From Bacteroidota bacterium (GTDB lineage Bacteria > Bacteroidota > Bacteroidia > Chitinophagales > Chitinophagaceae), in contig JABDAZ010000010.1 of NCBI GenBank assembly GCA_013288945.1, forward strand, positions 1-64,000: a stretch of DNA of 64,000 bases. Direction: 5' to 3'. The stretch's first letter is position 1. Each line of letters starts with the position of its first letter. Made by a program: the position numbers and the translations under genes. This document shows positions 3,237-37,760 of this stretch, in pieces. The notes beneath the pieces are model-generated. The model did not search any database. It saw nothing but the letters and a program-made list of their open reading frames with translations, and was not told the origin of the DNA.

Positions 3237-5269
3237 CTATTTTCCCACTGGTAACTGTATCATAAATGTTGTTCCTTCACCATCTTTGGTTTGCACTTTT
3301 ATCTCACCACCGTGAGCTTTCATAATATCGTAGCTTACACTCAACCCCAAACCCGTTCCCTGCCCCGTTGGTTTGGTGGTGAAAAATGGTTGAAAGATTT
3401 TATCAACAGCCTTCAGCGGTATACCATTGCCATTATCGCTGATGCTTATTTCTACTTTATCATTTATCTTTTTTGTGGCTACCGTTATTGCAGGTTCATA
3501 ATCTGCATGGTGCTGTTTTGCTTTTTCATTGACTGCATAAAAAGCATTATTATAAATATTCAGCAATACCCTTGTTATATCCCCGGCAACAATATAAATA
3601 CCACCTGCTGATTCATCATAATTTGTGTTTAATGCTGCACTGAATGATTTATCTTTTGCAATCAGGCCATGGTATGCAAGCCTGAGATATTCATCTGCTA
3701 ATTTATTGATGTCAGTTAAATCTTTACGGCCGCCGGACACCCTGGTGTGCTGGAGCATTCCTTTTACAATGCTGTCAGCCCGTTTGCCGTGATGGTTAAT
3801 TTTCTGCGAATTTTCTATAACATCGTTTGCAATTGCTATTATTTCCTCTGTATTGCCGTTGTCAGCTTCCTGTTTTAATTCTTCAAGCAGCTCTTTATTT
3901 AGTTCCGAAAAATTGTTGACAAAATTAAAGGGTTTTGAATCTCGTGGGCAATGCCGGCGGTGAGCTCCCCCAGAGAGGCCATTTTTTCTGACTGGATAAG
4001 TTGCGATTGGGTAGATTTCAGATTGGCAAGTGTTTCCTGTAACAGGTTATTTGCTTTTTGTTTTTGGACGTTGTTCCGGTAAAATACCATCGCCAATAAC
4101 ACAAGCAAAACAACACCTGTAAATAAAGCTATTACGGTAATCCTCGTTTTATCATCTTTATTTTGCCGGGCCTTCTGCTCCAGCCGATCATGCTCTTCAA
4201 AATCAATATTTTGAAATTGTGTGAGTTTTTGGTTATGATCATTATTCAGGCTGTCGCCTATTCTTTTTGAAATACTTAAATAAACCAGGGCGCTGTCCGC
4301 TTTTCCCAATATTTTATAAGCATCTGAAATTACGCTGGCAGATGAACTGATAATGTAAGCGATTTTCAAAGAAGATGCAAGACTGAATGCTGTTTTGGAG
4401 TACAGCAAAACAGAATCAATTGGGCCTGCGGTTTTAAACAGATCTGCATATGCTAAATTTACATAACTCAAAACAGTCAGGTTATTTTGTTCCCTGTTAA
4501 CCGCTATTGAACTGCGGTAATAATATTTTGCGGAATCAATTTGATGTTGTTGTAAATGGATATTCCCAATGACCATCAGGATGTACCCCAGATATGTTTT
4601 ATTTCCAGTTTCATAAATGTACTTCAGTGCCCTGAAAGAATAGAAGAAGGCAGAATCCAGGTTACCCAGTTCGAAATATCCTTCACCAATATTCATATTG
4701 CTGTTTACCAGGTTTTCATCTGCGCCAATTTCCGCGGAAATTCGGATTTCTTCTTTAAAATAGTTATTTGATTTTTCAATATCACTTCCTGCATATATAA
4801 TACCCTTTAAATGTGCAACGCCCGCCAAAACATTTAACCGGTATTTGTGCGGCTCGCCTGCAAACTTTTCTCCAGGCCTGATATACAGATTTTTTTCATT
4901 CTTTTCATTTTGTCCAAGGGACAATGCCTCATTTGTAAACCTTAGAGCAAGAGGAAGGTTTCCCTGGTGGTTTACGAAGTAAGATTTATTTAATAAAAAA
5001 TTTGCCTTCCAGAGTGGCTGCTTCAGTTTGTCCGATATTTGCAAGGCCTTATTTGTAAAAAATAAAGCACTGTCCCAGTTACTTTCTGAATAATAATTCA
5101 TCAGGCTGTCAAGAACAGTTATTTTTACAGTGTCATTTGCTGCAGCTTTGAATGCCGCTGTCAGTTTATTTAATTTCCCGTGCTGAATTTGTGTACTTGC
5201 AAAAAAAGGGAATAGAAGGAACAATAATATTTTTAATAATAATTTCATTCGTTCAATAATGCAACTCAA
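3237..5269 (-). pseudogene. TPR-containing sensor histidine kinase, frameshifted between the H-box and the ATPase domain
   Basis: ORF 3899-5269 ends ...[15 protein letters not shown] then goes out of frame; another frame continues [29 protein letters not shown]... into ORF 3237-3758, which has the HATPase motifs DNGNGIP and GTGLGLSVSYDIMKAHGG. Confidence 0.8.
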
Positions 5270-5972: not shown

Positions 5973-7811
5973 ATGGATAAAATAAAAATACTGTTATTAA
6001 CGGCCATTACTTTTTCTTCCTTGCATGGGTTTGCACAAAGTCCATACAAAAATGACCGGGTTTATACAGGTAACCAGGTTTCCAATACGGTATCCGTGAT
6101 TGACCCTTCCCAAAATAAATTATTGGGGGAGATAAAGCTGGGCAACCCGTATCCGAATGTACTGACCCCGCTGTATAAAGGGCAAACACTCGTACACGGG
6201 TTACGCTACTGCCCGAAAAAAAAATTATTGGCCGTAGTTTCTATTGGTTCAAATTCGGTTACTTTTATTTCTACAGAAAATAATAAAATAATCAGGATAG
6301 TATATGTTGGGCGTTCACCGCACGAACCCACTTTTACTCCCGATAGCAAACAGGTTTGGGTATCGGTACGGGGGGAGGGATATATCAGTGTGATTGATGT
6401 TGATAAAATGGAAGAAATAAAAAAGATACCAGTGGCCGACGGTCCGGGCATGGTTGCGTTTTCTCCTGATGGCGAATTCGCTTATGTATGTTCAAGCTTT
6501 ACGCCAGAACTTGATATCATTAGAACGAAAGACTACACACTAATTAAGCGGATAGATATTGCAAGCCCTTTTTCTCCCAATATTTTTACAAGCCCTGATG
6601 GGAATTGGGTGGCGCTGACCCTTAAAGACATCGGTGCAGTAGTGGTAATAAATGCCATTACACTGGAGGTGGTAAAGCAAATTAATACAGGTGGTATAAC
6701 TAACCATGTTACTTTTAGCAACCTAGGCAAACTGCAAAGGATGTTTGTGACAGTTGGTGCAGAAAACAAAGTGCGGGTATTTGATGTAACTAAAGATTTT
6801 ATCCAAACAGACACCGTTGATGTCGGTGCATTGCCTCATGGCCTTTGGCCATCTGACGACGGGAAATTAATGTACATAGGATTGGAATACGGCGATGAAG
6901 TGCAGGCAATTGATTTGGTAACGTTAAAAGTTACAGGCACAATAAAAATCGGCCAAAGCCCGCAGGCATTGGTCTATGCGGGCAATGCCGTTTATGATTA
7001 TACAAAAAGCCTGGAAAATTTAAAGCCTTTACAAGATACTACCGCTACCCAAATAATCACCCTCAACAGTTTGAATGGAAGTGCTTCCCATGGACGCCTT
7101 GCTGTCCGGCCCGTTGGTGTGACTGATTTGATAGAACAGATTTTTACTGGTTTGATACCCGGAAACAGCTATACGCTTGCATTTTCAAAATCAATGAATG
7201 TTCCTTTTGCAAATGACTACGAAGTGAATCATTTTGTGGCCGATGTCCACGGAAAATTTGGCGGCCAGTCTGCAGGCCTGGTAAAAAGTGCCGTGGATCC
7301 AACGGCGCAGGATTATAAACACATCATTCTGATTGATAACAATACAAAGGAAACAGTGTTGCTGGATAACCTTAATTCAGTAACTTCAATGAGGCCTGAG
7401 ACTGACCATTTAAACAACAGGAACATGAACCCCAAAGGTGTATTATCAGTGCAAAGCAGGTATCCGGTCAGAGAGACCGCTGACCGTCTGGAGAAGATCC
7501 TGCATTCAGCCGGAGCTACTGTTTATGCCCGGATAGATCAACAGGCAGAATTAGAAAAAGCAGGACTGGATATCAGGCCCATGGAATTTTTGTTATTCGG
7601 TAACCCAGCAGCCGGGGGACCTGTTATTATGCAAGATCCGTTGGTGGCACTTGACCTTCCCCTGAAACTGCTGGTATTCGAAAACGAACAAAATGAAACC
7701 TGGATAATTTCAAACGAAGCATCCTATATCGGTGAAAGATTCGGTCTGGCAGCCAGTACATATGCGCCTTTTATACTTGATAAGATAATTCAAAAGGCAA
7801 TTTCAAACTAG
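5973..7811 (+). CDS. YVTN beta-propeller protein with a C-terminal DUF302-like domain
   Basis: Propeller repeats (VYTGNQVSNTVSVIDPSQNKLLGEIKLG, PHEPTFTPDSKQVWVSVRGEGYISVIDVD). The C-terminus resembles DUF302 (PVRETADRLEKILHSAGATVYARIDQQAEL...FGNPAAGGPVIMQDPLVALDLPLKLLVFE). Confidence 0.85.
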   Translation: MDKIKILLLTAITFSSLHGFAQSPYKNDRVYTGNQVSNTVSVIDPSQNKLLGEIKLGNPYPNVLTPLYKGQTLVHGLRYCPKKKLLAVVSIGSNSVTFISTENNKIIRIVYVGRSPHEPTFTPDSKQVWVSVRGEGYISVIDVDKMEEIKKIPVADGPGMVAFSPDGEFAYVCSSFTPELDIIRTKDYTLIKRIDIASPFSPNIFTSPDGNWVALTLKDIGAVVVINAITLEVVKQINTGGITNHVTFSNLGKLQRMFVTVGAENKVRVFDVTKDFIQTDTVDVGALPHGLWPSDDGKLMYIGLEYGDEVQAIDLVTLKVTGTIKIGQSPQALVYAGNAVYDYTKSLENLKPLQDTTATQIITLNSLNGSASHGRLAVRPVGVTDLIEQIFTGLIPGNSYTLAFSKSMNVPFANDYEVNHFVADVHGKFGGQSAGLVKSAVDPTAQDYKHIILIDNNTKETVLLDNLNSVTSMRPETDHLNNRNMNPKGVLSVQSRYPVRETADRLEKILHSAGATVYARIDQQAELEKAGLDIRPMEFLLFGNPAAGGPVIMQDPLVALDLPLKLLVFENEQNETWIISNEASYIGERFGLAASTYAPFILDKIIQKAISN

Positions 7812-16634: not shown

Positions 16635-19268
16635 ATGCAATTTGATTGGGACATCATTAAAGCATTCACCCATTGTCAATACAAAGCCTGGTCTTTGGCC
16701 TCCGGTCAAATAAACAATACCAATTTTACTGTAAATGAAAATATTGTTGATGTCAACTTGCCTCTCCGTTCAATAACGTTGCAAGATAAAACAACTGCTA
16801 TTGCATGGTTTTACAATTTAGATACGCGAACAACAAATCACGTTGACAGAATTAGGATTCACATAGGATCAAAATCGGAAATCATTAAGTTACCAAAGCC
16901 GAATACAAAAGCAAAGAAATTATTGGCTGATTTTAAAAACTTTATTGATAAGAAGGAGCCTCCTCCTTTTTATAAAAACCCGCATTGCAATGAATGCCAT
17001 TTAAGAGAACGTTGTTTAAAAAAATTAAAAGAGCGAGACTGCATTAGTTTGCTTGGCGGCATGTCTCCGCATATACTTTCAACATTTCATAAGAAAGGAA
17101 TTTTTTCTATCCTGCAGCTTTCTCACATCTTTCGGCCGCGAAGAAGAAACCGCACAATTACTAAATCTGTCAAGTTCCCCTTTGAATTAAAAGCGCTCTC
17201 GATACGGGAACAAAAAACGTATGTCCTTCATAAACCTGAATTAAAAGATAATCCTGTTTCAATTTATTTTGATATGGAAGGATTACCAGATGAGAATTTT
17301 ATTTACCTGATTGGCGGAATAATTAAACAACATGATAAAGCAGACGAACAGTTTTCATTTTGGGCAAATAATGAAAAAGAAGAAAAACAAATCTTTAAAA
17401 ACTTGTTTGATGTATTTGCAAAATATCCTGAAGCTTCTATTTATCACTATGGCAGCTATGAAACCAAAGCATTGAAGTATGCGGAAAAGAATTGGTCTTT
17501 TGTTTTACCTGATGAAACCAACTTAATAAACCTGTTGTCGTTTTTTCGAACGCATGTATATCCGCCAACATATACCAATGGATTAAAAGAAATTGCAAAT
17601 TTTTTAAAATTTGAATGGAATGATGCTGAAGCAAACGGTTTAAAAAGTATTGAATGGAGAAAACATTGGGAACATACCAACACTGAAAATAATAAACAAA
17701 AATTAATTGATTATAACCTGGACGATTGCAAAGCGCTCATTAAAGTAAAAGAATGGTTTGACCATCTGGCTAACGATGATGCAGAAAATGTGCAGCAGGT
17801 TTCAAAAATGAAGCGGCACAGCCCTTACAATTTTACGAGTAATCAGGGTTTCGGAGAAGATTTTAATACTATCAATAAAGCTGCCTATTTTGATTACCAG
17901 CATTCAAAAATTTATTGGCGTAATGAGAAAAAAATTATCACAAAGAAAAATGAACCAAAACATTTTGGGCGTGGACAGCATGTCTGGCAACCAAAAAAAA
18001 TAAATCAGGTTATTCAGATCCCACCATTAAAAAATTGTCCCCATTGTGGCCACCGCAAACTATACCATGCCGTAAAGCAAAGAACATTTATTCAAACAGA
18101 TATAAAGTTTACATCCAAAGGCATTAAACAGTGGATTATAGAATATCATAGCGGCAAAGGCAAATGTGCAAAGTGCAGGATGAAGTATAATGACAGCACC
18201 CTCAGGATGCTCTACTATGGCGATAATTTAATTGCATGGGCAATCAATATGTATGTCAGTTATAAAGTAAGCTTTGCTTTGATAAGCAGGTTGGTGCAAG
18301 AGCAATTTGGAATATGGGTTAACCCAACATATTTTAATGACCGAAATTATATGTGGTGGCAAAAATTCAAACCGGAAGTTGATTATTGCTGGAAGATAAT
18401 ATTAAACAGCCCTGTCATTCATATTGATGAAACAACGGTGCGTTTGTCAAAAGGAACAGACCGCGGTTATGTATGGGCTTTTGCAACACAACATACGGTA
18501 TTCTACCACCTGACCTTAAACCGAGAAGCAGATTTTTTACATGAATGGCTGAAAGATTATAAAGGAATTATTATTACTGATTTTTATGCAGGCTATGAAT
18601 CACTCCCTGTTAAAAGACAAAAATGTTTGGTTCACCTTATCCGTGATTTGAATGATGAATTATATAAGAACCCGTTTGATGAAGAATATAAAAAAATGGT
18701 AGTGGCCTTTGGACAGCTCTTAAAGAAAATTATTTTAACAATCGATAAATATGGATTGAAAAAATTAAACCTGAAAAAACATATCAAAGAAACTAACCGG
18801 TTTTACAAAGAGTATGTTGACATAAAATATAAAACAGAGCTTGCTTCAAAAGCAGCTAAACGTTTAAAAAGGCATTGGGAAGAACTATGGACTTTTTTAT
18901 ATCATGACGGCATTCCATGGAACAACAACAATGCGGAAGCAGCAGTAAAAGCATTTGCACTTCACAGGAGAAATGTAAACGGTCAGGTAAATGAAAATGG
19001 CTTGAAAGAATATTTAAGCATGTTAACTATTGCGCAAACCTGCAGGTATAGAAATATTTCATTTTTGGATTACTTGCGCCGCAAAGCAGGCATCTGGCAA
19101 AATATTCCTGCTAAATTATTGCCAGGCTATCTTCCAATGGAACAAACAAAAGTGTACGCTGCAAAAATGAAATTTAAAACGGCGGAACAGTGGCGTACAT
19201 GGAATGAATCGGGAAAACGTCCAACATTTATTTCACCGGAATATTTTTTTATTAAAAACATAAAGTAA
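16635..19268 (+). CDS. Fusion protein: RecB/Cas4-like Cys cluster + RNase H-like DEDD nuclease (TM0106-like) + IS66-type DDE transposase
   Basis: N-terminal FTHCQYKAW...NPHCNECHLRERC; IYFDMEGLPDENFIYLIGG, SIYHYGSYETKAL, YNLDDCKAL (DEDD-like); zinc motif CPHCGHRK...CAKC; IS66 motifs VIHIDETTVRL, IITDFYAGYESL, GIPWNNNNAEAAVKAFALHRRNVNG. Confidence 0.88.
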   Translation: MQFDWDIIKAFTHCQYKAWSLASGQINNTNFTVNENIVDVNLPLRSITLQDKTTAIAWFYNLDTRTTNHVDRIRIHIGSKSEIIKLPKPNTKAKKLLADFKNFIDKKEPPPFYKNPHCNECHLRERCLKKLKERDCISLLGGMSPHILSTFHKKGIFSILQLSHIFRPRRRNRTITKSVKFPFELKALSIREQKTYVLHKPELKDNPVSIYFDMEGLPDENFIYLIGGIIKQHDKADEQFSFWANNEKEEKQIFKNLFDVFAKYPEASIYHYGSYETKALKYAEKNWSFVLPDETNLINLLSFFRTHVYPPTYTNGLKEIANFLKFEWNDAEANGLKSIEWRKHWEHTNTENNKQKLIDYNLDDCKALIKVKEWFDHLANDDAENVQQVSKMKRHSPYNFTSNQGFGEDFNTINKAAYFDYQHSKIYWRNEKKIITKKNEPKHFGRGQHVWQPKKINQVIQIPPLKNCPHCGHRKLYHAVKQRTFIQTDIKFTSKGIKQWIIEYHSGKGKCAKCRMKYNDSTLRMLYYGDNLIAWAINMYVSYKVSFALISRLVQEQFGIWVNPTYFNDRNYMWWQKFKPEVDYCWKIILNSPVIHIDETTVRLSKGTDRGYVWAFATQHTVFYHLTLNREADFLHEWLKDYKGIIITDFYAGYESLPVKRQKCLVHLIRDLNDELYKNPFDEEYKKMVVAFGQLLKKIILTIDKYGLKKLNLKKHIKETNRFYKEYVDIKYKTELASKAAKRLKRHWEELWTFLYHDGIPWNNNNAEAAVKAFALHRRNVNGQVNENGLKEYLSMLTIAQTCRYRNISFLDYLRRKAGIWQNIPAKLLPGYLPMEQTKVYAAKMKFKTAEQWRTWNESGKRPTFISPEYFFIKNIK

Positions 19269-19279
19269 GATTCATTAAA

Positions 19280-20455
19280 ATGGGTATAGAAAAATTAACC
19301 AGAAAGGATTTACATAACATGGTATGGGCAACACCTTTGCAATTGCTTGCAAAGAAATATCAAATTTCAGATGTGGGACTGCGAAAAATGTGTAAGCGTA
19401 TGATGATACCTGTTCCCAATAATGGGCACTGGGCAAGGCTTCCAATCAACAGAGTTGCGCCGATAAAACTTTCTGGAAGGTATTCCGGGGATGATGAAGT
19501 ACGGCTTGAACTTAGAAAGGAAAAAGATGATTCTGACAAGGAAGCATTGAAAGAACTAACTGAAGAATTCAGAGCAAACCACATTGTGCGCATTTTTGAA
19601 AAACTAACCAACCCGGATGAATTAGTAATCGTTTCCAAAAATATCATGCATGGTAAAGAAGGTCGTTCCTATCGTCATGGAGAAATGCTCACTAGTTCGA
19701 GAGGAGGACTTGATATTTGTGTGTTGCCTGAAAATATCATACGCGCTTTATGTTTTATGGACGCTGTTATAAAAGCATTAGAGACAAGAGGACATGATAT
19801 CATGACTCGCAACGCACAAACATTCGCAGTCATATTTGATGTGGAAATTGAAATTTCCTTCCGCGATAAATTAAAAAGAATACCGGTCAATACACACAGC
19901 TACCCAAGCACTGAACTCGTTCCAACCGGGCATGTTTGTTTCCGGGCAAGGATAAATTACAGCGATAAGGAATGGAAAGACGGAACACAATCGATTGAAC
20001 AACAGTTGCCCGCAATCATGGCAAAACTCGAACTGGAAGGCGGCAGGATTGCAGATGAAAGGATTTGGCGGGATAAGCAGGCGGAGATTCGCGAACGCAA
20101 AGAAAAAAAATTACAGGCCATCAAAGCGAAGATGGAAAAAGAACTGGCAGATTTTAAAAATATGCTGGGCCAATCCGTTCGCTGGAAAAAAGCAAAGGAC
20201 CTGCGCAACTATATTGATGAAAGGGAAAAATACGCCATCGAAAATAACCAGCACGATGAAAAATTTATCCGCTGGTTGGAATGGGCGAGAAAAAAAGCAG
20301 ACTGGTACGATCCGTTCATCAATACAGAAGATAAACTTTTAAACAATGTTCAAAAAGATAGTTCCCAACCTGAGAAAACACAACCGGCCTCTGAAAATGA
20401 ATTATTTTTTGAAACAAAAAACTGGTTTAAAAAGCCATTTTATTCAAAAAGATAA
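19280..20455 (+). CDS. Conserved hypothetical protein with N-terminal HTH-like motif
   Basis: LTRKDLHNMVWATPLQLLAKKYQISDVGLRKMCKRMMIPVPNNGHWARL, a recognisable N-terminal motif of a widespread unknown family; starts 11 nt after the transposase fusion. Confidence 0.7.
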   Translation: MGIEKLTRKDLHNMVWATPLQLLAKKYQISDVGLRKMCKRMMIPVPNNGHWARLPINRVAPIKLSGRYSGDDEVRLELRKEKDDSDKEALKELTEEFRANHIVRIFEKLTNPDELVIVSKNIMHGKEGRSYRHGEMLTSSRGGLDICVLPENIIRALCFMDAVIKALETRGHDIMTRNAQTFAVIFDVEIEISFRDKLKRIPVNTHSYPSTELVPTGHVCFRARINYSDKEWKDGTQSIEQQLPAIMAKLELEGGRIADERIWRDKQAEIRERKEKKLQAIKAKMEKELADFKNMLGQSVRWKKAKDLRNYIDEREKYAIENNQHDEKFIRWLEWARKKADWYDPFINTEDKLLNNVQKDSSQPEKTQPASENELFFETKNWFKKPFYSKR

Positions 20456-20812: not shown

Positions 20813-22327
20813 ATGAATAAGTGGGATTACATAGAATATCAGAAAATTATTAACGCAAAAATTGATGACCGTTTAATATCAATAACCTTTGCTAATAATG
20901 ATAAAGTTGATATTTCTATAAATACTTTTTTGCCGCAAGAATCTGAGAAAATTGAACCTGGGACGATTTCATTTTCAGATTATGAAATTTCTATTAGAGC
21001 CACTCCTGAAGATATTATAGTTCCATGGGATAGGATACGTGTGCTAAGTGATAAGGATTTTGCAAAGGAAATGGTTAGGTTGGCAGGAGAGAATCATAAG
21101 TTAACAGGGTTGAGGCTTAAAGCACTTCGTGAAAAAAAGAATATTAAAAGCGGCGATCTTGCTTTCATTTCTGGAGTTACTCCACAAACCATTTCACGAA
21201 TTGAAAAAGGACATACAGATGTAAGTTTTGGCACCTTAAGAAAAATTTTAGCTGCAATGGGTTACTCTTTAAAAGATTTAGTTGCACAAGAAACATTGCA
21301 AGAAACTTTAAAACCTATTTCGACTTTCAATGAAATTCTTAAAAAGCTGAACAAATTAGGCTTAGGAACTTCTATAATCAACAAAATCCTGCCTTTGGAA
21401 ATTCAAAGTCAGGTTGGTCAAAGAAAAGATGGATTACCGGAACTATTGATCAATGAAATAACTTTTCATTTGAATAGGATTTTTGGATGGACAGGCACGG
21501 AGATTTTAGAAAACGAACATTTATCATTTAATGAGAGTCCTGCACAGATCGCATATTTTAAAACCCCTTCAAAAGGAAATATAAACCAAATAAAAGCCTA
21601 TTCCCATTATGCATTTTATCTTGCAAATATTGTCAACAATATCAATATTACAAAACCTTCAATTGATTATCCAGGCGATTTAGAAGAATTCAAAACGACA
21701 TTTTATAAAAAGTATCAGCAACTTGATTTAGAAAATTTAATCAATTATTCTTGGGACTTGGGTATCTGTATAATTCCTTTAAATGATCAGGGCGTTTTTC
21801 ACGGAGCCTCGTGGAATATTGAAGGGAAGCATGTCATAGTCTTAAAACAAAGAACCCAGGCACACGCCCGATGGATATTTGATTTGCTCCATGAACTCTA
21901 TCATGTATTCGTTCATTTGGAACAATCAAATACATCAGTAATAGAAATCGAAGAACTTAATCCGTATTCGAATAATAACTCAATTGAAGAAAAGGAGGCT
22001 AATGCTTTTGCTGACCAATTCATTTTTAATCATAAAGCTGAAGAAATAGTCCATAAATCATTAGAAAATGCGAATTATAAATTAGACCAACTTAAAAAAG
22101 CAGCAATTGCAATTTCAAAACAAACAAAAATCAGGGTTGATTTTATTGCAAATTATTTAGCCTTTAGATTACAGATGAACGAAAAGAATTGGTGGGGTTC
22201 TGCTAATAGTTTACAGATAATAGATCCGGATCCATTTTATATTGCCAAAAAAGTATTGAATGAAAGGGTCTCAATTGAAAATCTTAATACAATTGATAAA
22301 AACTTACTTGTATCAGCCTTAAATTGA
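20813..22327 (+). CDS. DUF2442-like + XRE HTH + ImmA/IrrE metallopeptidase fusion
   Basis: N-terminus DUF2442-like (LISITFANNDKVDISINTFLP...IIVPWDRIRVLSDKDF); HTH LRALREKKNIKSGDLAFISGVTPQTISRIEKGHTDVSFGTLRKIL (approximate); zincin motif FDLLHELYHVFVHL with EKEANAFADQFIF. Confidence 0.88.
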   Translation: MNKWDYIEYQKIINAKIDDRLISITFANNDKVDISINTFLPQESEKIEPGTISFSDYEISIRATPEDIIVPWDRIRVLSDKDFAKEMVRLAGENHKLTGLRLKALREKKNIKSGDLAFISGVTPQTISRIEKGHTDVSFGTLRKILAAMGYSLKDLVAQETLQETLKPISTFNEILKKLNKLGLGTSIINKILPLEIQSQVGQRKDGLPELLINEITFHLNRIFGWTGTEILENEHLSFNESPAQIAYFKTPSKGNINQIKAYSHYAFYLANIVNNINITKPSIDYPGDLEEFKTTFYKKYQQLDLENLINYSWDLGICIIPLNDQGVFHGASWNIEGKHVIVLKQRTQAHARWIFDLLHELYHVFVHLEQSNTSVIEIEELNPYSNNNSIEEKEANAFADQFIFNHKAEEIVHKSLENANYKLDQLKKAAIAISKQTKIRVDFIANYLAFRLQMNEKNWWGSANSLQIIDPDPFYIAKKVLNERVSIENLNTIDKNLLVSALN

Positions 22328-22337
22328 ATAAGCTAAT

Positions 22338-22985
22338 ATGCAAAAGAGAAAAAAATTTACACGGGTAGTCCCAGACGAAATTAAAGTATCGGAATTAAAG
22401 ATTGATGATGTAACATGTGGTGCAACTAAATGCGATGAAGGATACCATTGCTACAGTAAAAAGAAAACGAGTTTAAGAAAATATGGGGAACAAAGAGTTT
22501 GTAAGGAATGCGGCACCGATTTAATTGATTGGGAACGGATTCACAAGAATGATATTAATGATTCAGACTTTGTATTTGAACAACTAAGAACAGAAATTAT
22601 TAGACATGTATTCTGGCATAACCAAATTCAGGTGGAAGCATTACACGCAACATACTTACAAGGCAAAACTAAAACTCGTGAAAAAGCACTACGGCTTTTG
22701 AAATCCAGGATTGGAAAGTATAATAATTTTATGGATGGACGACAAACTCCAATGGGAAAAGAGGAGATAGTCAATTATGCACAGCATGCAACAGCTACCT
22801 GCTGCAGACAGTGCCTGGAAGCCTGGCACAACATCAAAATGGAAAAGCCCTTGACAGAACAAGAGCTTAACTTTTGCACCGATTTAGTAATGAAATATAT
22901 TACTGAAAGGGTCCCAAAATTAAGTGCCGATCCGGTTGATGAAGAAATTGCAAAAAAATTATCTTATGAACATAATAAACACTGA
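22338..22985 (+). CDS. Zinc-binding protein with DUF4186-like C-terminus
   Basis: Cys clusters CGATKCDEGYHC and CKECG; C-terminal GRQTPMGKEEIVNYAQHATATCCRQCLEAWHNI resembles DUF4186. Confidence 0.75.
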   Translation: MQKRKKFTRVVPDEIKVSELKIDDVTCGATKCDEGYHCYSKKKTSLRKYGEQRVCKECGTDLIDWERIHKNDINDSDFVFEQLRTEIIRHVFWHNQIQVEALHATYLQGKTKTREKALRLLKSRIGKYNNFMDGRQTPMGKEEIVNYAQHATATCCRQCLEAWHNIKMEKPLTEQELNFCTDLVMKYITERVPKLSADPVDEEIAKKLSYEHNKH

Positions 22986-23964
22986 AGAAATTTCATCAAA
23001 ATATAGACAAAAGGGAATTAACCTCAGCGAAAAATCGCTATCAATAACAAACTTCAAGGGCTCAGAGCAAGAGAAAGATTTGAGGGAACAACCAAATTGT
23101 GACGGATTTGGGAGAATAAGGCATTTTAAATTACATCCTTCAGAAGATTGGCCAATAAATCCTCTACCTATTATTCCTGCGGCGAAATATTTGGGTATAA
23201 AGCAAACAGATGAACTGAGGGCACAAGTATTTCAGAATTCCGTATGCAACTGGCGATGCTGGTATTGTTATGTAGATTTTAAACTGTTGAATGGAGATAG
23301 CAGGTTTTCAAGTTATCTAACAAGTAATGATTTACTTGATTTATATTTAAAAGAACCCAACCCTCCTTCATTAATTGATTTATCGGGTGGTCAGCCTGAC
23401 CTGACACCGGAATGGATTCCCTGGATGATGGAAGCTATTATTGAAAAAAATCTTCAGGATAAAATACTTCTTTGGTCAGACGATAATTTAAGTAATGATT
23501 ATTTTTGGCGTTACCTTTCTACAGATCAAATTGATTTAATTACTTCATATAAAATGTACGCAAGAGTTTGTTGTTTTAAGGGAATTGATGAAACATCATT
23601 TTCAATAAACACAAAGGCGGATCCAAAATTATTTTATAACCAATTTGACTTATTCAAACGCCTTCGTAGTATAAAAATCGATTTGTACGCTTATATTACG
23701 CTAACAGCCCCACCGGAAACAAATTTTGAAAAGTCAGTACCCTTGTTTATGGACCACATACAATCTGTTGATGAAAAATTTCTGCTAAGGATTGTACCAT
23801 TAAAAATTTTTGAATTTGAACCAACAAAATCAAGGAATGATATAAATAAAGCTGAACTTCTATCAGGTCAGGAAAAAGCTATTGTGATTTGGAAAAGAGA
23901 AATGAAAAAAAGATTTTCAGAAGAAGAGAGAAATTTACCAATAACAAATATTTATGAGCCCTAA
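22966..23964 (+). CDS. Radical SAM domain protein
   Basis: SVCNWRCWYCYVDF (CxxxCxxC) and LIDLSGGQPDLTPEW (GGxP-type). Start chosen at the in-frame ATG 22966, overlapping the upstream gene. Confidence 0.9.
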   Translation: MNIINTEEISSKYRQKGINLSEKSLSITNFKGSEQEKDLREQPNCDGFGRIRHFKLHPSEDWPINPLPIIPAAKYLGIKQTDELRAQVFQNSVCNWRCWYCYVDFKLLNGDSRFSSYLTSNDLLDLYLKEPNPPSLIDLSGGQPDLTPEWIPWMMEAIIEKNLQDKILLWSDDNLSNDYFWRYLSTDQIDLITSYKMYARVCCFKGIDETSFSINTKADPKLFYNQFDLFKRLRSIKIDLYAYITLTAPPETNFEKSVPLFMDHIQSVDEKFLLRIVPLKIFEFEPTKSRNDINKAELLSGQEKAIVIWKREMKKRFSEEERNLPITNIYEP

Positions 23965-23992
23965 ATTTTTCATGTAACCCAAGCCTTTTCCA

Positions 23993-25276
23993 ATGAACAA
24001 AGCATATTTAAGAAAATCTGTTTTACGCATCTGCCAGCAACCCCGGACTTTTGAATACATAAGCAAAAATACAAAAGGTCTTTACCCAAATTATCTAACC
24101 GATATTTTGAGGGAGCTTGGTGACGAAGATTTAATTACTTATGTTAATGATATGTGGGTGGTCAAACAAATAAAAGTAGATGATGACAAATTGCAACTTT
24201 TTCCACCAGAGTCAAAACTTTATTTGCAAAAGTATATGGGCTATTTTGACTTTTTGAAAACGCCCCACCCCTTAGATTTTGAATGGAGAAATTCTACAGC
24301 TAGTTTGAATAGATTGCTAAATAAAATCCAAACGTTTTTACTTCCTAAAGACAAACTTTTATTTTTAGGTATGCCAACTTTATTCGCAACAGCAATTCAA
24401 AAAGATATTCCTTATGTAACTAGCCTTATTGAACGTAATAAACCTATCATAACTGGATTAAATAAAATACATAACGGGAGTAATAAATTTAGAATAATCG
24501 AAGCAGACTTATTCAGAATAAATCCTGAAATTATCGCTGAACATTTTTGTGTAGTAATGGATCCACCATGGTATACACCACATTTTAAACAATTCATGTG
24601 GGTAGCGGCTAAAAGTATTTGTCTAAACGGAATGGTTGCAATTAGTTTGCCCCCCATTAATACAAGGCCAAATATTTTAGAAGAAAGATTAGAATGGTTT
24701 ACTTTTTGTCAAACTCTTGGTCTGTGTTTGGAAATACTAGAACCGGAGCAGCTTGAATACGCGATGCCTTTCTTTGAGTTTAATGCCTTAAGAGCTAATG
24801 GAATTCAAGATGTGATGCCTTTTTGGCGAAAAGGAGATTTGGCTATATTTAGAAAAATCGGAAATACAGATCTTCCACGACCAAATCATGAATCTATAAA
24901 TAGCGAATGGGTTGAGAGAGAATTTAATTCAATAAGATTAAGGATAAAAACAAATCATAATTCTGCTTCGGTTAACCCAAATTCTATTCCTTTAATTATA
25001 GAATCAATTGTAAAAGGAGATATCTTGCCGACAGTTAGCAATAGGGATGAAAGAAGAAACGAGGCTAATTTATGGACCTCGGGAAACAGAATCTTTAAAG
25101 TCAATGATCCTTTTGTTTTTCTATCTTGTTTGGATTCTGTTCTCTCTGGAACGAACATTACCGAAAACGAAAATCTAGTTACCGATTTTATTGCAGTTGT
25201 TATCAAAATAGAAAATTCAGAATACAAAGAATATCTAGAATGGATTTATTATGAAATGGAAAGACAAATTAATTAA
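23993..25276 (+). CDS. SAM-dependent methyltransferase-like protein with N-terminal winged helix and DPPW motif
   Basis: N-terminal wHTH-like segment (YLRKSVLRICQQPRTFEYISKNTKGLYPNYLTDILRELGDEDLITYVND); LLFLGMPTLFATAI and FCVVMDPPWYTPHFKQF. Confidence 0.65.
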   Translation: MNKAYLRKSVLRICQQPRTFEYISKNTKGLYPNYLTDILRELGDEDLITYVNDMWVVKQIKVDDDKLQLFPPESKLYLQKYMGYFDFLKTPHPLDFEWRNSTASLNRLLNKIQTFLLPKDKLLFLGMPTLFATAIQKDIPYVTSLIERNKPIITGLNKIHNGSNKFRIIEADLFRINPEIIAEHFCVVMDPPWYTPHFKQFMWVAAKSICLNGMVAISLPPINTRPNILEERLEWFTFCQTLGLCLEILEPEQLEYAMPFFEFNALRANGIQDVMPFWRKGDLAIFRKIGNTDLPRPNHESINSEWVEREFNSIRLRIKTNHNSASVNPNSIPLIIESIVKGDILPTVSNRDERRNEANLWTSGNRIFKVNDPFVFLSCLDSVLSGTNITENENLVTDFIAVVIKIENSEYKEYLEWIYYEMERQIN

Positions 25277-25769
25277 TGATTTACTTGATTCATTAAAAAA
25301 GGATATGTATTGGTCCCGGTTAATTTACAACGCTATTCACGAAAATAAAATAAATATACATCTTGCAATTTTTAACGAACCGTTTTTAAGCTTGATTATT
25401 GCAAAAAAGAAAACTATGGAATCCAGGTTTTCAGTTAACCATGTTTCACCTTACAATAAAATTAATTCAAATGATATTGTATTAATAAAAAAATCTGGAG
25501 GTAACGTTGACGCTATATTCACTGCAAAAAATATTAAATATTTTAGAAATCTTTCTTCAGACAAAATTTCAATTTTAAATGAGAAATATGGCAATCAAAT
25601 TGGCTGGGACATTGATCCAGAATTTCTTAAAAATAAATCTGGCGCAAAATATTTGACATTAATGGAAATTTCCCATTTAAAAACGTTAGCTCCAATTGAA
25701 GTAGGTAAAAAGGACAAGACCGGCTGGTCTGTTATAAAGTTAGGTTTAAAGAACACACTATTTGAGTAA
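25251..25769 (+). CDS. ASCH-domain-like protein
   Basis: LAIFNEPFLSLIIAKKKTMESRFSVNHVSPYNKINSNDIVLIKKSGGNVDAIFTAKNIKYF matches the ASCH pattern (P-x-L-x-x-I-x-x-GxKTxExR). Confidence 0.75.
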   Translation: MKWKDKLINDLLDSLKKDMYWSRLIYNAIHENKINIHLAIFNEPFLSLIIAKKKTMESRFSVNHVSPYNKINSNDIVLIKKSGGNVDAIFTAKNIKYFRNLSSDKISILNEKYGNQIGWDIDPEFLKNKSGAKYLTLMEISHLKTLAPIEVGKKDKTGWSVIKLGLKNTLFE

Positions 25770-25784
25770 TAAAAATAATTAACA

Positions 25785-26333
25785 ATGTATGATCTGACAA
25801 TAGGAATAATTGGAAAGATTTCAGTAGGAAAATCCAGCATAGCTAGAGCATTGCATGAAAAAACAGGTATTCCATATACTTCATTCGGCAGTTATCTTGT
25901 TGCATATAGCAAACTCAATAATTTGCCAATAGATAGAACCTCTCTTCAAAATTTGGGCAATAAGTTTATTAAAGAAAATTCTCAAACTTTTCTTAGTAAT
26001 GTACTTAAGAATGTGACTACTAAATCCAATATAGTAATTCTTGAAGGAATACGTCATGTAGATATTTTGGAATCCATAAAAAAAATAAATAAGAAAGTTT
26101 TATTCATTTTTATCGATGCTTCACCTGCAATAAGATACGAAAGGTACCTCAACAGGCAGCCGGAAAATATAGTACCTGTTGGCTTCGATGAGTTTCTGCA
26201 AAAAGATAATCATGTTGTAGAATCTGAAATTGACTTATTAAAGCCTCAATGCGACCTAATAGTCGATTCTGAAAAGTTAACCGTAAATGAGGTTTTGGAT
26301 TTTATCTATCTATTTATTAAACCACATCTTTGA
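25785..26333 (+). CDS. P-loop nucleotide/nucleoside kinase-like protein
   Basis: Walker A GIIGKISVGKSSIARAL; VILEGIRHVDILESI; FIFIDASPAIRYERYLNR. Confidence 0.8.
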   Translation: MYDLTIGIIGKISVGKSSIARALHEKTGIPYTSFGSYLVAYSKLNNLPIDRTSLQNLGNKFIKENSQTFLSNVLKNVTTKSNIVILEGIRHVDILESIKKINKKVLFIFIDASPAIRYERYLNRQPENIVPVGFDEFLQKDNHVVESEIDLLKPQCDLIVDSEKLTVNEVLDFIYLFIKPHL

Positions 26334-34398: not shown

Positions 34399-37254
34399 AT
34401 GGAAGAATTTCATTATCTCTTTCAAAATACAGGGGAGACCGAATACAATGATGTTGTCTATGATCATGTTTTTGATCTTTCCAATAATGAATTCACTTTT
34501 CTTATTAAGCCTCAAAATACAATCTACTGGAGATTTGGAATAAGATTGTCAGCCACTCCTGAAATAGAATTTTATCATCCGTCAGGACGATATCAAAAAA
34601 AAGATACAGCGGATGTTCATATAGCCGCAGGTGAATGGAATGGACAAGTTTGGATCTTGCCAAACCGGTTTCAAATGGCACAATATTATCTCCCAAATCA
34701 AGAGCATATTTTAAGCCGCTTCGAAAAATATGAGCCTTTTCAACCAGTTGAATGGCAGTTAAGATTTTTAGTAAATAGAGGGGAAGGAAATGTTTTACTC
34801 CTGGGATATAAAATCGGTAATGACGTATTTTCCCAACAATATGCCATAGCTGAAAATTATAAATATTTTAAAGTTTTTGCGTGGGCAGACAAAAGCAATT
34901 TCTCTTTGGATTGTACAATATCACAAAGATCATTTGGGCCGTTTTCGATAGGCAATATCACTTTTAGAAATGGAGATATGTTCGATGACCTGGTAATGGA
35001 TGAAACTGATATTATATTATTGCCTGCGTCAAGCCAGGGAACTGCGACAAAAAACATTCTTGCAAGAAGCGAAGAATTAGGAATCCCGCCTCCTGTCGAA
35101 AATGATATTAGTTCGGTGCTAACTTATGAAGTAACCACAGCATATCAAAAGCGATTAAGAGCAGGCTATGCATATTCAGTAAAAAATAACGAATCGTCTA
35201 TTGAAATAATTAAAACTCTTTGTAAGAGTATTATATCGACATTTTCCAAAGAGTCAGCTCAAAGAATTAACATCCCATTATTTGGCACAGGAGGAGGCTC
35301 ACTCAGCCCCGAAGCAGTAGCTGTTATATATTTGGATGTGCTGAACAACGATACAGTTAATCTAAAATTTATCGTCAGCATTGTTGATGATAGTGTTTTT
35401 ATAAAAGTAAAGAATGCCTTAGGGAATTTTAATACCCCAATCAATAAAAATGCACCTGATGTAAAATCCAGGTTGCATTCAGATACATTTTCCATTGATG
35501 AGGCAGATGTCCTCAATTACGATTTAATTGCTGAAAATTTTTTTACTATTCTTAGCGATAAAGAAACCAACCCTCCTTTGAATGTTGGGATAATTGCTCC
35601 TTGGGGGAGGGGCAAGACCAATTTGATGAAACGTTTAAAAAATAAATTCGACGAAGAAAGAACTAAACTACTTTCAAATAGCCCAACAGTTAATAAGATG
35701 CCCTCAATAAAAACGTTGGGAAGATGGATTAATAATGAAGCACCTATATTAGGGGTTAAACATAATATTCCCTATTCTACTGTTTGGTTCAATCCGTGGA
35801 ATTATCAGAGCACGGATATGATATGGGCAGGCCTCGCCGATGCAATAATTGAACAAGTAGTGGAATCAATTCCCGGAAAAATCGACCAAGAGATATTTTG
35901 GTTTCAATTACGCCTGGCAAGAATTGACAAACAGGAATTAAGAAGAGATGTCCAGACAAGGTTTGTTTATTTCATTTCCAATTTTATCATATGGATTTTA
36001 GTCGGGATAGTTGCTATCGCATATTTTATTTTGTCAAAACCTGTGATTGCATGGGGGGTGATTGGCGTCGGTGGTATAATTGGCACTATTACCTCTATCA
36101 TGAATTTTTTGAAACCTTACAGGACTAATATTTCAAAAGCGTTTGATAAATACACTAAGCCGCCAAAATATCCGGAAAAGCTTGGCACTTTTCATGATGT
36201 GCAGACTGATGTAAATAGGGTGTTGGATTTATGTATAGATAAGCGGAAACCTCTGGTAATCTTTGTTGATGACTTGGATCGATGCTCCGCTTCAAAAGTA
36301 GTAGAAGTCATCGAAGCGATAAATGTTTTTATCAATGGGATGTATAATAACAAATGCTATTTTGTCCTTGGGATGGACGCAGAAATGGTCGCTGCTGCAT
36401 TAGATGCTTCGTATGAAAAGATGAAAGGCAGGCTTGGAAATAAAGAAATGGAGCAGGGATCTATAGGCTGGTATTTTATGGATAAATTTATTCAGCTCCC
36501 GTTTTTCATCCCGGTGATGAGCGAAGCAAAAAAAGGTGAATATCTTGACATTCTAATAAAAGAAAAAAATTACAATACAGAACAGCAAAATCAGATTGAC
36601 ACAGGAAAAGTTAAAGATTTATTTGAAGGCATCATGTCAACTAATAGCAATGTGGCGTCATCTAACATGATCGCTCAATCAGGGCTAACAATTGAAGAAA
36701 AGAATGCGTTGGACAAGATGATCTTAAAAAACCAAGTTGAGTCGCGTGGCCAGGAAGAAGAAATAAAAAAACAGGTGCTGTCTTACGGAAGATTTCTTAA
36801 TTCCGATCCGCGTTCATTAAAAAGATTTACAAACCTGCTCAGGTTCTATTGCGGGTATCAATTTCTAAGGATGAAGAAAGGAGAAGATTTTGCGGAGGCA
36901 AAAGTACTTGCCAAATGGCTCGTCGTCATGATCAAGTTTCCGCAACTTGTACGCTGGATTCAATGGGACGCTGATAACAAAACTGGTCCGATTATCTCCT
37001 CAGAAAACAAAGCAACAATCCTCGATTCGCTTATAAAAAACTTCATGCAGAATAATAATGGTAGCGGGAAAACTTACAAAGATTGGTTACAACTGTCATT
37101 GCCAATAACTTTCTATCAGACCGAAAAAAGAAAAAAAATAGATGACCTTGACGAAATAACTTGGATTAAGTCAGAAACAATGTTTGAAATATTGATGTTC
37201 GAATTTTCAGAAAAGCATTATTTCAAAAATGCATTTGTATGCAATGTTTGGTGA
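34399..37254 (+). CDS. KAP-family P-loop NTPase with macro-like N-terminal region
   Basis: Walker A VGIIAPWGRGKTNLMKRL, Walker B LVIFVDDLDRCSASKVVEVIEAINVF, inserted TM pair; N-terminal segment with MDETDIILLPASSQG...RINIPLFGTGGGSLSPEAVA. Confidence 0.85.
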   Translation: MEEFHYLFQNTGETEYNDVVYDHVFDLSNNEFTFLIKPQNTIYWRFGIRLSATPEIEFYHPSGRYQKKDTADVHIAAGEWNGQVWILPNRFQMAQYYLPNQEHILSRFEKYEPFQPVEWQLRFLVNRGEGNVLLLGYKIGNDVFSQQYAIAENYKYFKVFAWADKSNFSLDCTISQRSFGPFSIGNITFRNGDMFDDLVMDETDIILLPASSQGTATKNILARSEELGIPPPVENDISSVLTYEVTTAYQKRLRAGYAYSVKNNESSIEIIKTLCKSIISTFSKESAQRINIPLFGTGGGSLSPEAVAVIYLDVLNNDTVNLKFIVSIVDDSVFIKVKNALGNFNTPINKNAPDVKSRLHSDTFSIDEADVLNYDLIAENFFTILSDKETNPPLNVGIIAPWGRGKTNLMKRLKNKFDEERTKLLSNSPTVNKMPSIKTLGRWINNEAPILGVKHNIPYSTVWFNPWNYQSTDMIWAGLADAIIEQVVESIPGKIDQEIFWFQLRLARIDKQELRRDVQTRFVYFISNFIIWILVGIVAIAYFILSKPVIAWGVIGVGGIIGTITSIMNFLKPYRTNISKAFDKYTKPPKYPEKLGTFHDVQTDVNRVLDLCIDKRKPLVIFVDDLDRCSASKVVEVIEAINVFINGMYNNKCYFVLGMDAEMVAAALDASYEKMKGRLGNKEMEQGSIGWYFMDKFIQLPFFIPVMSEAKKGEYLDILIKEKNYNTEQQNQIDTGKVKDLFEGIMSTNSNVASSNMIAQSGLTIEEKNALDKMILKNQVESRGQEEEIKKQVLSYGRFLNSDPRSLKRFTNLLRFYCGYQFLRMKKGEDFAEAKVLAKWLVVMIKFPQLVRWIQWDADNKTGPIISSENKATILDSLIKNFMQNNNGSGKTYKDWLQLSLPITFYQTEKRKKIDDLDEITWIKSETMFEILMFEFSEKHYFKNAFVCNVW

Positions 37255-37674: not shown

Positions 37675-37687
37675 ATAATCTAAAAAG

Positions 37688-37760
37688 TGGTGTGGGGCGG
37701 GATTGAACCGCCGACACAAGGATTTTCAGTCCTTTGCTCTACCAACTGAGCTACCGCACC
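37688..37760 (-). tRNA. tRNA-Phe (anticodon GAA)
   Basis: Reverse complement GGTGCGGTAGCTCAGTTGGTAGAGCAAAGGACTGAAAATCCTTGTGTCGGCGGTTCAATCCCGCCCCACACCA folds as a cloverleaf with anticodon loop CTGAAAA. Confidence 0.95.

Follow-up and report, generated by a model that had tools for sequence, protein, structure and literature searches.

The window analysed here, i.e., the whole 64,000-nucleotide stretch at positions 1 to 64,000 of contig JABDAZ010000010.1 from a Bacteroidota bacterium, contains at 11269-37760 a mobilisable island in which an HTH gene, a CHC2/Toprim primase, a small gene that is MobC-like by position, and a MobA/VirD2 relaxase are followed by cargo running up to a tRNA-Phe gene at 37687-37760. 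Between the mobilisation genes (relaxase, primase) and this variable cargo lies a complete gene encoding 877 amino acids, referred to below as the fusion; the host MAG (116 contigs, 3.03 Mb, 73% complete) has it once. The gene that follows on the same strand (19280-20455) starts 11 bp past the fusion stop codon and encodes a 391-aa protein with no Pfam or PADLOC match. Further along, the cargo at 20813-26333 includes an XRE/M78 (ImmA/IrrE-like) gene partly resembling RmrA, DUF4186, a radical SAM protein whose similarity to viperin is faint, a 427-aa gene of unknown kind, and a small NTPase that looks kinase-like, and a KAP-family P-loop NTPase similar to QatA and to the PDC-S20 defence models (34399-37254) adjoins the tRNA-Phe gene. 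A C-terminal fragment of a tyrosine integrase is found at the contig start (29-598), and no att repeat of the tRNA-Phe end was found in the host MAG.

The features of the fusion are collected in Table 1. The first-pass annotation had described a single uninterrupted reading frame with these motifs, and its coordinates, length, and motifs hold as it gave them. Residue conservation was counted over 28 proteins, the window protein included and a few of them truncated, with denominators that vary with coverage.

Table 1. Features of the fusion gene, in window coordinates
Feature	Position	Strand	Basis
Complete fusion gene, 877 aa	16635..19268	+	Uninterrupted ORF
C14, N-terminal cysteine of the Cas4-like Fe-S motif	16674..16676	+	C in 25/26 homologues covering the region
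TM0106/TIGR03491 RecB-like region, residues 85-374, PD-(D/E)XK core mostly deleted	16887..17756	+	Profile match; alignment with stand-alone relatives
Fe-S cysteines C118-x2-C121-x5-C127	16986..17015	+	Kept in 26/26 homologues
RNase_H_2, DEDD-type exonuclease domain, residues 210-375	17262..17759	+	Pfam; PolC/DnaQ exonuclease fold match
DEDD motif I, YFDMEG, D213 and E215	17271..17279	+	27/27 homologues
DEDD motif II, YHYGSYE, ending at E276	17442..17462	+	E276 in 27/27 homologues
DEDD motif III, YNLDDC, D364	17712..17729	+	28/28
Zinc-ribbon-like C468/C471...C511/C514	18036..18176	+	C468, C511, C514 invariant; C471 is C or H
IS66-type DDE transposase domain, residues 528-789	18216..19001	+	Pfam and NCBIfam; best PDB fold match is the ISCth4 DDE transposase
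DDE catalytic D598 (HIDETT)	18426..18428	+	28/28
DDE catalytic D649 (ITDFYAGY)	18579..18581	+	28/28
DDE catalytic E768 (NNNNAEAAVK)	18936..18938	+	27/28
Partial C-terminal repeat, weakly INT_rpt-like	19107..19229	+	Several fuller copies in L024, L023, L029, L093

That a nuclease half and an IS66-type transposase half share one protein, as the same annotation had proposed, is borne out by two profiles scoring above their curated cut-offs: TIGR03491 (TM0106 RecB-like nuclease) at residues 85-374 (E 2e-52, 178.6 bits, cut-off 97.45) and NF033517 (IS66 transposase) at residues 453-816 (E 4e-57, 194.2 bits, cut-off 180). In Pfam, the protein matches RNase_H_2 (E 1e-27, residues 210-375) and DDE_Tnp_IS66 (PF03050; E 1e-33, residues 528-789). 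Similarity to Cas4 stays below threshold, both for Pfam Cas_Cas4 and for TIGR00372 (19.5 bits versus a cut-off of 65), and PADLOC returns no more than a weak Cas4 similarity. In eight homologues both halves are likewise recognised by profiles, with the IS66 half at times below its cut-off. The zinc-ribbon-like cysteine region gave no match to zf-IS66 in the domain search. At the C-termini of L023, L024, L029, and L093 there are repeats of ~60-70 aa with a GWxDWxDWLG-like motif, in up to about four copies, for which an INT_rpt match was obtained in L024 only, below threshold (E 0.008).

The nuclease half has the same order as the TM0106 RecB-like nucleases (TIGR03491), namely a Cas4-like Fe-S part and then an RNase_H_2 DEDD domain, and the four-cysteine Fe-S motif of TM0106 type is present in its residues, the cluster itself being predicted. 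These relatives stand alone or lie within longer proteins of about 1,000 aa, whereas the fusion is joined to a transposase. As had been suspected at first pass, the PD-(D/E)XK core is lost: in alignment with stand-alone relatives its catalytic residues are absent from all fusions compared, and they are present in the helicase-length TM0106 relatives L002 and L004 (IDSK, HDTK). Most of the core is deleted in the window protein, L029, and L093, the window protein being about 90 residues short of the cyanobacterial members, which match TIGR03491 over nearly its full length. An active endonuclease of the RecB/Cas4 type is ruled out because these catalytic residues are gone, and their loss leaves what are predicted to be a Cas4-like Fe-S scaffold and a DnaQ/PolC-like exonuclease domain.

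The DEDD and DDE sites had looked intact at first reading, and across the family they are. The Fe-S cysteines, the DEDD-type residues (D213, E215, E276, D364), and the DDE triad (D598, D649, E768) show next to no variation among 26-28 proteins. Across six close pairs, whole-protein dN/dS ranges over 0.11-0.28 and that of each half over 0.10-0.38, values that indicate purifying selection on both halves. Taken together, the conserved sites and the low dN/dS imply that selection keeps the fusion in a state with two active sites intact and a third dead. Since E276 replaces the usual second Asp, the nuclease chemistry of the DEDD site is uncertain, and the site could be that of an endonuclease or act on RNA.

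AlphaFold2 models were built from the family alignment and compared with the PDB by Foldseek. The full-length model (pLDDT 77, pTM 0.50) has the ISCth4 DDE transposase as its best match (E 2e-9), followed by hAT transposases and retroviral integrases; at this pTM the relative placing of the two halves is unsure. When modelled alone, the N-terminal half reaches a pLDDT of 84.7 and a pTM of 0.80, and its matches at Foldseek probability 1.00, with modest E-values of 0.003-0.01 (best 2.7e-3), are the Cas4 of the type I-C Cas4-Cas1-Cas2 complex, the PolC exonuclease, and the DnaQ domain of S. thermophilus DGCC 7710, which suggests the nuclease-type fold that the first-pass annotation had assumed. 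A search of PDB sequences with the family profile also ranked Cas4 first (E 0.007).

The fusion architecture recurs in 27 homologues (a few truncated) from Bacteroidota, Cyanobacteriota, Thermoplasmatota archaea, and Desulfuromonadales. Two of the same architecture, from Calothrix sp. PCC 7716 and Acaryochloris marina, came from a tblastn search of plasmids (35-38% identity over 81-87% of the query); a three-protein alignment used as query then led to 17 loci in GTDB genomes (Flavobacterium, other Bacteroidota, Thermoplasmatota, Desulfuromonadales, and many cyanobacteria), and whole-genome searches supplied further homologues. A misassembly joining two genes, a concern raised at the outset, is ruled out by these 27 homologues, which stem from separate assemblies and in which the order of the halves and the catalytic residues are preserved. 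The window protein does lack ~90 RecB-core residues and most of the C-terminal repeat, as an accidental or pseudogenic product might; set against the shared architecture, the invariant sites, and the purifying selection, such an origin, or a chimeric one, is extremely improbable, and for the family it is refuted.

The family is rare and patchy. It was found in at least 3 of the 350 genomes from the genus to which Flavobacterium sp. ENC belongs, in at least 2 of 386 in a draw from the cyanobacterial phylum, and in at least 2 of 396 in a draw from the phylum of the window, counts that include the centre genome and are lower bounds because only the top candidates per genome were scored; in a draw from one cyanobacterial family it was found in 6 of 118 genomes. 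In separate trees of each half with stand-alone outgroups, all fusions form one clade (support 99/96 for the N-half and 100/100 for the C-half) with mostly congruent inner groups, and this argues for one ancient fusion instead of repeated fusions, within the limits of the outgroups sampled. The archaeal members are nested among bacterial ones, which implies that the gene crossed domains. In Leptolyngbya L028 a cyanobacterial N-half accompanies a C-half that groups with Desulfuromonadales, a mosaic likely produced by exchange at the junction between the halves. Damaged copies also occur: L072 has two stops, L024 is truncated, and the gene is split in Calothrix sp. PCC 7103 (L037, G113:C1). The two halves of the latter are near opposite ends of a 102-kb contig, as if an insertion had interrupted the fusion in a circular replicon.

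Comparison of close relatives, with copies 79-92% identical in different contexts, reveals homology blocks about the size of the gene. The block extends from -12 to the stop codon in L036/L033, from -2 to +5/+8 in L103/L077, and from about -170/-215 to +36 in L101/L102, and in L032/L034 the limits of homology lie tens of bases or less from the ends of the ORF. L023 and L029 share a 93% identical block made up of a tRNA-Leu end, a serine recombinase, and the fusion, which ends at the fusion stop codon and gives way to different cargo. On the plasmids L100 and L103, whose flanks and backbones are 90-91% identical, fusions that are 50% identical to each other occupy the same place beside a tyrosine integrase.

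Neighbours of the fusion are often recombinases, parAB, and toxin-antitoxin genes, and no conserved partner gene was seen beyond pairs or trios of close relatives. AbiEii-type toxin genes adjoin it in four Bacteroidota loci (L026, L029, L094, L095), part of an ABC-3C system (CTD7) is nearby in L023, and an addiction-module antidote in L100. As for carriage by phages, three queries of IMG/VR gave no matches, and phage records gave plain IS66-type matches only. Genes for tRNA occur no more than 1.5 kb downstream of the fusion in L026, L027, and L033, and close to it in L029, compared with 1 of 18 plain IS66 control loci. Insertion targeted to tRNA genes is not claimed, the controls being too few and the plasmid copies not fitting it.

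Several of these loci also contain repeats. At the tRNA-Met locus of L026, 136-bp direct repeats (86%) with tRNA-like 3' fragments (1928-2063 and 6424-6561) flank the AbiEii gene and the fusion, and an empty-site comparison there encountered repeated tRNA-like fragments and no clean junction; in a relative, L150, a related unit is repeated there in tandem about eight times. In L094 (380-5500) and L095 (4716-5054), related repeats of 100-280 bp alternate with single genes and toxin-antitoxin pairs, an arrangement resembling a gene-cassette array, with the fusion and the AbiE genes inside or beside it. Directly upstream of the fusion unit in L036 are inverted arrays of four 20-bp repeats (800-882 and 4487-4569), and the genes that they bound resemble a Tn5053/Tn7-like transposon when judged by eye (ATPase, DDE-type, and resolvase ORFs).

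With the TnpC transposases of IS66 elements (NF033517, PF03050) the fusion has in common the DDE catalytic domain, with D, D, and E conserved. The control TnpCs (Rhizobium; in part Kovacikia) carry LZ_Tnp_IS66 or DUF6444 and zf-IS66, and one of them also has IS66_C, whereas the same domain search of the window protein and of the Calothrix homologue returned the DDE domain and none of these, and the nuclease half occupies the place of the TnpC N-terminal domain. The first-pass annotation had seen neither TnpA nor TnpB, and indeed tblastn with Rhizobium proteins found none at any fusion locus, nor did a search of the host MAG, itself 73% complete, find TnpB_IS66, for which control genomes were positive. 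Some IS66-type elements lack TnpA and TnpB. No terminal inverted repeats rose above background in 16 loci, by a scan that could miss imperfect ones of 15-25 bp where the DNA is AT-rich, and none were present at the L100/L103 or L101/L102 boundaries; the loci compared also yielded no 8-bp target duplications and no empty site of the fusion gene itself. Most genomes hold a single copy, and where full-length second copies within a genome were compared, their identity is 33-48%, which gives no sign of recent multiplication, with the proviso that draft assemblies may hide repeats. The fusion is thus, as far as its domains and boundaries indicate, no standard IS66 element, and its architecture goes beyond an ordinary IS66 variant.

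Other known systems resemble the fusion in part. In the CRISPR trimmer-integrase, DNA is first trimmed by a DEDDh exonuclease that is fused to Cas2 and then integrated by Cas1 (PMC10284694). The fusion shares with this Cas1-Cas2/DEDDh system and with Cas4-Cas1-Cas2 the joining of Cas4-like and/or DnaQ-like DEDD trimming to an integrase, but the integrase there is Cas1, and the corresponding part of the fusion matches an IS66-type DDE domain instead. No consistent CRISPR or other repeat arrays were found beside the fusion, and a general scan of its neighbours, one not specific to cas1 or cas2, found no cas genes. The TnsA nuclease of Tn7 is of the active PD-(D/E)XK type, whereas in the fusion the site of that type is dead and the DEDD site intact, and no TnsC-type partner is conserved beside the fusion gene. 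The likeness to TnsA and TnsB (PMC8188705) is that of a nuclease and a DDE transposase acting on one DNA end.

The reading that we favour, and to which we give about an even chance, is that the fusion is a single-chain DNA-end-processing integrase on mobile elements, which would serve the plasmid or island carrying it as an accessory enzyme and would not be the transposase of a classical IS. The Cas4-like module would hold a DNA end whose 3' terminus the DEDD site would trim, and the DDE domain, for whose assembly some other means would replace the leucine zipper of TnpC that is missing here, would cut and/or join the trimmed end to a target, much as the CRISPR trimmer-integrase (Cas1-Cas2/DEDDh) works, but on a transposase basis and in one polypeptide. 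This reading draws on the matches to both profiles, the invariant sites, the single clade for each half, the dN/dS of 0.10-0.38, the dead D/E-x-K site, the fold matches to Cas4, PolC, DnaQ, and ISCth4, and the precedent in PMC10284694, and further on the gene-sized homology blocks in different contexts and the divergent fusions at the same site in L100 and L103. The modest Foldseek E-values of the N-terminal half, the unsure placing of the halves, and the uncertain chemistry that E276 brings to the DEDD site count against it. That the fusion is a CRISPR-independent, single-polypeptide trimmer-integrase capturing or inserting DNA fragments for plasmids and islands, which would also put trim-then-integrate on a transposase scaffold, we regard as unlikely.

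Homology confined to the gene would also fit an autonomous single-gene element with unrecognised ends, namely a divergent IS of the IS66 type with short or diverged ends, in which the transposase acquired a nuclease half that might, for instance, cleave the second strand, like TnsA alongside TnsB. Intact DDE residues, relatives of 79-92% identity that share little outside the ORF across genomes, replicons, and sites, a patchy distribution across phyla, and the existence of damaged copies all speak for such an element; it is nevertheless doubtful in view of inverted repeats that do not exceed background, the lack of recent duplicates, and the absence of TnpA/TnpB and of the leucine-zipper and IS66_C domains. 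Domestication is plausible for the fusion, and the domesticated protein might act against foreign or competing mobile DNA, with the DDE domain cutting and the DEDD domain degrading, as a gene of defence or plasmid competition. The AbiEii-type, CTD7, and antidote neighbours noted above, the location in islands and plasmids, and the divergent alleles exchanged at the same site on related plasmids would suit this role, but toxin-antitoxin neighbours are usual on plasmids and islands, no consistent partner gene accompanies the fusion, and the PADLOC signal is the weak Cas4 similarity, so that degradative defence seems quite unlikely.

Both halves of the protein are already known individually, and database records name one half at a time, either IS66 transposase or RecB-like nuclease. 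In the open-access literature, a scope that leaves aside subscription papers and preprints, no description of an IS66-TM0106 or an RNase_H_2-DDE_Tnp_IS66 fusion was found, and a paper on Cas4 phylogenomics mentions neither TM0106 nor IS66 (PMC5704561). The fusion is a real and rare type of predicted DNA-processing enzyme on mobile DNA, and one that is apparently undescribed. The least to be gained is a corrected annotation for records that each see half of the protein.

As a rule, the nuclease that prepares a DNA end and the enzyme that joins it are two different proteins. In this family, the two are locked into one chain that has stayed intact across bacteria and archaea without the usual marks of an insertion sequence. 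Should it prove to trim and integrate DNA, the fusion would be a compact DNA-insertion enzyme of a new kind, and it would offer a test of how trimming of the Cas4 or DnaQ type became coupled to integration.
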